64,000 nucleotides of DNA, taken from contig JAQSEB010000021.1 of the NCBI GenBank assembly GCA_030063045.1, forward strand, positions 1,736,001-1,800,000. Direction: 5' to 3'. The translations under genes were made by a program, and so were the position numbers. The notes beneath the pieces were generated by a model. That model did not search any database. It was not told the DNA's origin and saw only the letters and a list, made by a program, of their open reading frames with translations. This stretch comes from Pratylenchus scribneri. Its lineage: Eukaryota > Nematoda > Chromadorea > Rhabditida > Pratylenchidae. Numbering within the stretch: position 1 is the stretch's first letter; each line of letters opens with the position of its first letter. Positions 16,477 to 18,597 of the stretch are shown in pieces.

Positions 16477-18597
16477 TCAGCAATTACATTTCTTTTTCTT
16501 CTCATCGTCTCTTTCCGTATTGGATTGAGCGCTCAGCTGAATAACACCACCTCCATTCTGCATATGATGTTTGGATTGGACCCCTGTGCCGGCCGTGTTA
16601 TCCAAACTGCAAATATGTATTAAAATATAGAAAATTATTTTTTAGTTTCATTTCGCTATCCCTCATTTTTTGAAGAAATTATTTATCATTAATTTTTCTT
16701 AATTTAATTTATAATTCTTTGATTTTTTATTAATTTCTTCATAAGGTGGATTTTCTCTCAAAAAAAATATATGTAATTTTTCAAAAATTATGAATATTAG
16801 CAAAAATCTCAAGATTTTTTATTATCAAAAAATGGCATTATTAATTTTAATATAAAGAAAAGTAACCTTCCATCCTGGATATTCTGATATATTCGTCGAG
16901 CCGTCTCCAAGAATGCGTCCTCCACATTTTTACCCCTGTAAACAATATTCAAAATTATTTTGACTATAATAAATCCTATCAGTTGATTTCACGTTTTTGC
17001 AGAGCATTCCATGAAAGTGAGGCCATTTTCATCGGCAAATGCCTTCGCCTCTTCATAGGTCACATCTCTTTGGGCCTCCATATCGGATTTGTTCCCGATC
17101 AGAAAAATCACCTTGAAAGTTAAATTTTTAGAGATTAAGATCAATGAAAAAAAATTAAAAAATTTTCCCAAAATTTATTAAATAATTTGAACAAAAGGGT
17201 CGGTTTTTGTCATTTTTACTTAAAAAATACTTGCCGTATTCGGATTGGTCAACTTTTTTACATCGCTGAGCCAACTGCTCAAATGATTGTAGGTCGACCG
17301 TCGGGTGATGTCGTAGACCTGAAGATTAAAAATCCTATTATTATTATCTTATCAATCAAGAGAGAATAAATTTTTGTAATTTTGAATCAAATAAATTTAT
17401 TATTAATTTATTAAATATTATTATTCATTTTAATTTCTATATTCGAGATTAATGAATGCCTAGAAGAGTAAAGGTTATGTTCGTAAAAGTACTAATCGGT
17501 GGTTTTTCGAGTCCAAATTTATTCAAAAAATTTTTTTTGATATTTTACAGATCTGAAAAATGGCTCTCTAATCTATTAAATTTGAATAATACAAAGGACT
17601 CCTTCACGATACTATTTATAAATCCTCTCAATCCTTCTTAAGATGAGACTCGTACGAATTGAGCAAGCCCATGCCTATGTGAGAGGTTTGGGAAGCTTTT
17701 GAGGGTGATCAAAATTTCTGCTACTCGAACCTCGAAAAAATGATTAGTATCCAAAATTGTGGAAATTTAGAACAAATTTAACATTTATTTAAAAACAAAA
17801 AAGTGTACCATCAATGCGCCGGCTGCACCTCTGTAATAGGAGCGTGTGACAGCTCGGAATCTCTCCTGACCGGCGGTGTCCCTTTAAAATTTTATTATTT
17901 AATTATGTGGAATATTTTGAAAGAAAATCTAACCAAATTTGCAATTTAATCTTCTGGCCGTTCACCTTGATCAGCCGGGTGCCAAATTCCAGACCAATTG
18001 TTTCAGTACAATCAGTCTTAACTTAAATTTGGCATTTTATTATTTTACATTATTTTTAAAGCTGCTACTTTACATTTTTTTCCAATGAATTGATGCAAAA
18101 GGCAAGACCTTAATTTTATTAATTTTTAAATATAATTTATTCTCTAATTTTTCCTACTTTCCAACGCTCATGTCCCCGATGATAATGTATTTTAATTCCT
18201 GTTTTATGTCATTTTCTTCAACCAATTTCTCGACTTCTTCCTTTAATCTTTTATTTTCAAATTGCATTCCCTCAAATGCCTTCATCATTTTTTCCATTCC
18301 ATTTTTCAATCCTTCATTTTCCTTCTTCATTTCGTCCATTATTTTTTCCATCTTGCCAAATTCTTTGCCCATCTGTAAACCCATTTGCATGATTTCCGAT
18401 TGGTCTCCATTATTTGTTTTATATGCATTATCCTAAATTTTAAATAATTAAATTTTTAAATATTTTGTAACCTCCAATTTTTGAATTTTATCAACAATCT
18501 GTTTCATGTCCATTCCAATGGATGAAACGGCTGTAAAATCGGATTCATCCAACTCATCTTCACAATTAGCAACGAACTCGCTATTATTTGGATCCAT
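16477..18597 (-). CDS. rab-14: Rab14-type small GTPase fused to a SPRY-family coiled-coil N-terminus
   Basis: Nine exons: 18597-18472, 18432-18158, 18108-18069, 18016-17934, 17881-17809, 17318-17235, 17111-16993, 16935-16867 and 16606-16477. They total 999 nt, 332 residues plus stop. From residue about 120 it is a complete Rab14-like GTPase: P-loop GDMSVGKSCLLHQF, switch I threonine in [39 protein letters not shown], and a C-terminal CNC for double geranylgeranylation. Rab14 acts in endosome/Golgi and phagosome traffic. The first two exons (about 120 residues, MDPNNSEF..., [13 protein letters not shown], then the acidic/basic coiled coil [20 protein letters not shown]) are not Rab sequence. 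They match exons 1-2 of the SPRY gene at 28745-30129, with the same exon 1/2 boundary. Intron 6 uses a GC donor (AATACG/GCAAGT). All GTPase motifs are intact; one Rab14 P-loop glycine is serine. Confidence 0.88.

Follow-up and report, generated by a model that had tools for sequence, protein, structure and literature searches.

A hybrid gene of Pratylenchus scribneri with the N-terminus and coil of a SPRY-like family and the GTPase domain of Rab14

The window, a 64,000 nt stretch of P. scribneri contig C21, has a gene on the minus strand (positions 18597–16477) whose predicted protein consists of a ~121-residue SPRY-family N-terminus followed by a complete Rab14 GTPase with a CNC end. This gene is probably a DNA-level chimera in which a 5'-truncated rab-14 is joined in frame within exon 2 of a SPRY-family gene, with a function as a coil-bearing Rab. 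Sequence comparisons demonstrate its architecture, the junction, the direction of the fusion and that the Rab part is under constraint. The coding sequence is on nine exons and is 999 nt, which translates into 332 aa with internal stops absent. The features of the gene and of a related gene in the window are as follows:

18598–19265, minus strand: 5' flank of SPRY-family type (putative promoter and 5' UTR)
18648–18655, minus strand: TTTTCCAG, candidate acceptor for trans-splicing or for a 5' UTR intron, 50 nt upstream of the ATG
18472–18597, minus strand: exon 1, acidic SPRY-family N-terminus, 42 aa (translation, genome search)
18158–18432, minus strand: exon 2, SPRY-family coil, then rab-14 beta-1 and P-loop from 18195, in a single frame
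18223–18375, minus strand: regular heptad coil, residues 62–112 (register score)
18195–18211, minus strand: most likely place of the fusion junction (start of rab-14, end of SPRY-family similarity, KLVEEN)
18074–18108, minus strand: exon 3 (alpha-1)
17934–18021, minus strand: exon 4 (switch I, interswitch)
17809–17881, minus strand: exon 5 (DTAGQERF, switch II)
17235–17318, minus strand: exon 6, followed by the GC-AG intron
16993–17111, minus strand: exon 7 (GNKSD, CSAKT)
16867–16935, minus strand: exon 8
16477–16606, minus strand: exon 9, hypervariable tail and C-terminal CNC
16409–16476, minus strand: rab-14-derived 3' UTR stretch, 74–75% identical to rab-14 on contigs C214 and C24 in an alignment that includes the last exon
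28745–30129, minus strand: SPRY-type gene with the same N-terminal module (translation, BLASTP)

Of the eight introns, seven have GT-AG ends. The intron that follows exon 6 is GC-AG, and the same GC donor is present in all three ordinary rab-14 copies. Residues 123–283 match Pfam Ras with an E value of 4.9e-62. The motif set of Rab proteins comprises the P-loop, the switch threonine, DTAGQE, NKxD and SAK, and all of these are intact in the translation. Thus the original prediction, that nine exons add up to 999 nt with the GTPase motifs and CNC preserved, is borne out by the translation and by the Pfam match. The C-terminus is KKKKCNC, and the cysteines present make it a candidate for prenylation. 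The P-loop Gly that is kept in 119 of the 120 best database matches is Ser131 in the hybrid, a substitution that may alter nucleotide handling. Among the 120 best of 7720 protein matches, most descriptively named entries are Rab-14 and one is Rab-4. A tree restricted to Rab14 proteins groups the hybrid with Pratylenchus, Meloidogyne and cyst nematodes (support 95/91). Two AATAAA hexamers, at 16298 and 16291, are found beyond the rab-14-derived 3' UTR stretch.

The genome (227,248,964 bases in 276 contigs) was searched with the Rab part. A second, unfused rab-14, which the original prediction had proposed looking for, is present in more than one copy, on contigs C3, C214 and C24. The C214 and C24 genes encode complete proteins; the last exon of the C3 gene was not found in the stretch read or among the matches of the Rab-part search, and that copy may be incomplete. 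The three proteins begin with MSMS or MSMT, and the start codon and the P-loop share one exon. C24 and C214 differ in an Asn-Ser leader that precedes Lys21. The hybrid is an extra rab-14 paralogue. At C140:306500–310500 there is a further, partial rab-14 copy, whose last matching stretch contains a stop.

The N-terminal part has a different relationship. Residues 1–122 align with the SPRY-type protein encoded at 30129–28745 with 55 of 104 identities and an E value of 1e-13 by BLASTP with the low-complexity filter on. The two proteins have in common a non-coil motif in exon 1 and a phase-0 exon 1/2 junction, so the match exceeds low complexity. Low complexity as its cause is ruled out by the filtered BLASTP and by the genome search; the similarity had been flagged earlier as needing this check and it survives filtering. 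It had also been proposed that the first ~120 residues correspond to exons 1 and 2 of the SPRY gene. The match does include the exon 1/2 junction, but it covers exon 1 and only the first ~220–237 nt of exon 2. The closest relative of residues 1–128 in the genome, besides the two fused copies (see below), has an E value of 2.2e-21. Residues 62–112 give the best a/d heptad register, and none of 200 shuffled sequences matches its score, a simple hydrophobic-periodicity score devised for this analysis. In a relative, locus L023, the coil reading frame goes well past the point where the shorter coil of the hybrid stops.

The resemblance extends upstream of the gene. The 5' flank is 65–66% identical to three SPRY-family loci (L027–L029) in alignments that run from 19265 into exon 2, and 75% identical over 19107–18562 to a truncated locus on contig C142. 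The expectation that the upstream DNA resembles SPRY-family flanks therefore holds out to about 19265. A similar CAG-ending segment is seen by eye at about the same distance from the ATG in the C142, L023 and L027 loci.

Residues 1–128 yield 168 exon-level matches in the genome at E ≤ 10 (242 candidates, 150 scored). The 150 listed matches represent at least 106 loci on 44 contigs, with at least 20 on C21 and at least 17 on C60, where matches with starts within 800 bp on one strand are merged; the 106 include both fused copies and some matches to the coil exon only. Among 25 inspected loci besides the fused gene, 21 are followed on the same strand by a SPRY-like domain, or by its start at the end of the stretch. 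No such domain was found after the module in the other four (L030, L039, L040 and L049), where the stretches examined may be too short. The label "SPRY-like" has three grounds, namely one sub-threshold match, the resemblance of the sequences to each other and the name given in the original prediction: the full SPRY-type protein of the window has no match to Pfam SPRY up to E 0.1, two of three SPRY halves have none, and the third matches below the threshold (E 3e-4, 21.3 bits; cut-off 26.3). The SPRY-type protein has zero database matches at E ≤ 10 (981 candidates), in a database that may lack P. scribneri proteins. Residues 1–121 have one (72 candidates), a JGI metagenome protein of 236 aa (P0121, E 4.9e-6) that has the coil without a Rab domain. 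The leader-plus-coil family thus appears from these searches to be large, mostly with a SPRY-like domain next where inspected, and with almost no database relatives. In positions 1–42300 of the window, SPRY-like gene pieces on either strand form an array, with the hybrid inside it; the coil module was found at two places only, 18597 and 30129.

Secreted SPRY effectors (SPRYSECs) are defined by a signal peptide and a SPRY domain. In the hybrid the SPRY half is absent, and the N-terminus is acidic and by eye has no hydrophobic stretch. No SPRY half or remnant of one was found at E ≤ 0.01 downstream of the coil or the Rab exons (window 10202–18252), and no EF-hand is among the 16 Pfam matches of the hybrid up to E 0.1. 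SPRY-domain transcripts of P. penetrans are reported, in a passage of PMC4684371, as not encoding SPRYSECs.

The two similarities meet within exon 2. DNA similarity to the ordinary rab-14 genes begins at 18195, the codon of ordinary Phe20, which is inside the ordinary first exon; the first 19 ordinary codons are missing from the hybrid, and there is no similarity to ordinary rab-14 upstream of 18195. Downstream, the similarity is in separate pieces that comprise exons and parts of introns, and with C214 and C24 it continues to 16409; the rab-14 segment extends to about 68 bp past the stop codon. Similarity to SPRY-family DNA begins in the 5' flank, at 19265 at the farthest, spans exon 1 and intron 1, and goes into exon 2, where it ends at 18235–18189 in the four best-scoring SPRY-family matches; a weaker alignment, with L042, extends to 18026. 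The last protein run common with L026 and L027 is KLVEEN (to 18211). Since the rab-14 introns and 3' UTR are kept, the first 19 codons are absent and the 5' flank is of SPRY type, the direction of the fusion, as judged from these alignments, is rab-14 DNA into a SPRY-family gene. The original prediction was of exon shuffling in either direction. The hybrid is genuine and its direction is now resolved, but whole-exon shuffling does not stand: the join is mid-exon, inside an exon of both parents, and thus is not an intron-to-intron event.

Comparisons of the hybrid with the ordinary copies give dN/dS values of 0.13–0.18 over all shared codons and 0.12–0.14 over the first 168 codons. The deficit of amino-acid changes has a binomial p of 7e-10 for the whole shared part (vs C214), and of 5e-9 (vs C214) and 9e-11 (vs C24) for the first 168 codons. 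From Lys21 on, the ordinary copies have a dN of 0 among themselves and show silent differences only (C3 without its last exon), so nearly all changes are on the hybrid branch. This branch looks faster, yet constrained, and by this measure the Rab part looks maintained. When 68 random substitutions are simulated, 306 of 5000 sequences remain stop-free, and the simulated amino-acid changes have a mean of 49 and a minimum of 36. The observed number is 26, a codon count that is unaffected by an alignment gap that shifts the substitution labels past about residue 290; positions are taken from the 15 core changes only. Seven of these 15 are in residues 142–156, in and just before switch I. At least seven changes within any 15-residue stretch are found in 65 of 20,000 permutations, a width that was picked after the changes were seen. 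Among the 120 best database matches, three positions in this segment are near-invariant (E or D at 143 in 119, H at 152 in 117 and V at 156 in 119), the position of Thr148 has A in 95, S in 16 and T in 1, and Ile142 and Lys147 of the hybrid are each found in two. Residues 165–202, which hold switch II, have zero core changes. The constraint on the Rab part could be partly older than the fusion, if an unfused duplicate came first.

For the N-terminal part, pairwise dN/dS with five SPRY-family relatives is 0.14–0.24 at dS 0.79–1.11. With dS near 0.8–1.1, close to saturation, the coil value mostly reflects the paralogues' own constraint; the low N-terminal dN/dS supports constraint after the fusion at the sequence level without proving it.

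The dS between the hybrid and the ordinary copies is 0.31–0.42 and that among the ordinary copies is 0.12–0.25, which suggests a duplication that predates the split of the ordinary copies. Parts of the introns can still be aligned, which would place the duplication within the Pratylenchus lineage. A counterpart of the locus, homeologous or allelic, is present on C142 (L058 1035–3431, C142:402500–406500). There the 3' flank begins directly after the 5' flank and 12 exon 1 codons: positions 18561–15809 are missing, and the 3' flank (15808–13926) is 91.6% identical. C142 also matches window positions 42283–40533 and 13474–10873, in order, which implies that the 21 kb from 40.5 to 19.1 kb are likewise absent from that place. 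The alignment indicates that the C142 gene, with or without the fusion at that time, was lost by deletion. The segment C142:403930–404064 was considered as the parent gene and is ruled out, as it is this counterpart, with the same 5' flank, 12 codons and 3' flank and the deletion.

Three other explanations of the locus were weighed. It is improbable that the hybrid is a decaying duplicate, i.e., a dead or dying rab-14 fragment still open by chance. Such decay would fit its faster amino-acid change relative to the ordinary copies, the partial C140 fragment with its stop, and the deletion of the counterpart on C142. It is opposed by dN/dS values well below 1 (p 5e-9 to 9e-11), by the retained splice sites and nucleotide-binding motifs, and by the lack of any frame-breaking length change. 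The loss on C142 also implies that the hybrid is not needed there, which counts against the chimera with a coil-bearing Rab function. Still less likely is a pair of transcripts in which the Rab exons have an internal start of their own and the SPRY-family 5' end plays no part. Coil Met codons at residues 88, 91, 92 and 98 would still yield a GTPase, but the ordinary start region is gone, as described above, and any such start keeps coil residues fused to the GTPase without a gap.

A misjoin of SPRY-family and rab-14 sequences in the assembly is very unlikely indeed. The assembly is rich in duplicated genes (41.4% of BUSCOs, as given in a passage of PMC10138993), and the hybrid is found twice on one contig: a second copy at 1186054–1188354 is 100% identical over 2301 bp. 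In an 8 kb comparison of the two (L056, C21:1183000–1191000) there are 15 differing columns, all outside 13559–19981, and the identical block is 6.4 kb, includes the hybrid gene and recurs 566 kb away. This second copy is either a recent duplication or an assembly duplication. Second copy aside, however, identity to other loci does not exceed 90% for any of the listed pieces of the two halves, which rules out either half as a misplaced copy of a gene that exists today. In addition, the reading frame is open across the join, and the 5' and 3' flanks of the hybrid are in the same order on C142.

As in canonical RAB-14 of nematodes and other animals, the hybrid has the GTPase domain and a C-terminal CxC; it also has the intron positions and the GC-AG intron of the ordinary copies. 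It differs in that its own N-terminus has been swapped for the 121-residue SPRY-family leader and coil, and in the altered switch I region and the P-loop Gly to Ser change. With the SPRY-like family of P. scribneri (MDPNN/DESDFTxVSS module) it shares the 5' flank, exon 1, intron 1, the start of exon 2 and the coil, with Rab14 in place of the SPRY half. Rab GTPases are among the most conserved eukaryotic switches, and few of them bear a coil. The large Rab GTPases Rab44, Rab45/RASEF, Rab46 and C. elegans rsef-1 combine an EF-hand, a coiled coil and a Rab domain, according to a passage of PMC8303950, and a 2007 paper that it cites terms Rab45 a self-associating GTPase in its title. Like these, the hybrid has an N-terminal coiled coil and a C-terminal Rab domain; unlike them it is without an EF-hand, is Rab14-derived and has a coil from an unrelated nematode family. 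The hybrid and the large Rabs would represent separate fusions. Chimeric genes that arise via partial DNA duplication are treated in a review (PMC3449122) and, for Drosophila yakuba, in PMC5460883; the hybrid resembles these in that a partial gene copy has gained the 5' end of another gene. No case with a SPRY-family and Rab14 parent pair and a coil-bearing Rab as the outcome was found among the papers listed by searches on SPRY in Pratylenchus, on fusions of Rab genes and on chimeric genes in nematodes, some of these lists being cut short, and no paper in the library searched has both "Rab14" and "Pratylenchus". No such fusion in another species was recognised among the 120 best of 7720 protein matches, where the highest listed query coverage is 73%, ten of the sequences were read, and the database may lack P. 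scribneri proteins.

The chimera can be accounted for if a rab-14 copy, from mid-exon 1 to the 3' UTR with its introns kept, inserted in frame in exon 2 of a SPRY-family gene in the SPRY-like array, with the rab-14 segment standing where the SPRY half of that gene would be. The SPRY-family promoter would then drive expression of the hybrid. Its product would be a prenylated Rab inside the nematode's own cells (no signal peptide is seen by eye). The coil would dimerise the hybrid, or pair it with SPRY proteins that carry the same coil, and the changed switch I may engage exchange factors or effectors that are partly unlike those of ordinary Rab14. The hybrid would then act like the large coiled-coil Rabs, with an independent origin. 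A broader proposal, which we regard as speculative and rather doubtful, is that the leader, coil and upstream region are a lineage-specific pairing tag of about a hundred mostly SPRY-like genes, and that a Rab has been captured into this network, which would place membrane traffic under coil-paired SPRY adaptors.

This coil-bearing Rab was seemingly built recently enough to leave its history readable, in the junction, in parts of the introns, in the ordinary copies and in relatives of either parent. It is a direct test case for the redirection of a Rab by an added coil and a new upstream region, and the clustered switch I changes may be adaptations that followed. The locus also points to a large SPRY-like family, nearly without relatives in the databases, in a nematode of crop roots.

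Elsewhere in the window, positions 62000–63000 hold a tandem satellite that is present in several arrays in both orientations, and 58 of its 61 listed matches are on contig C21.
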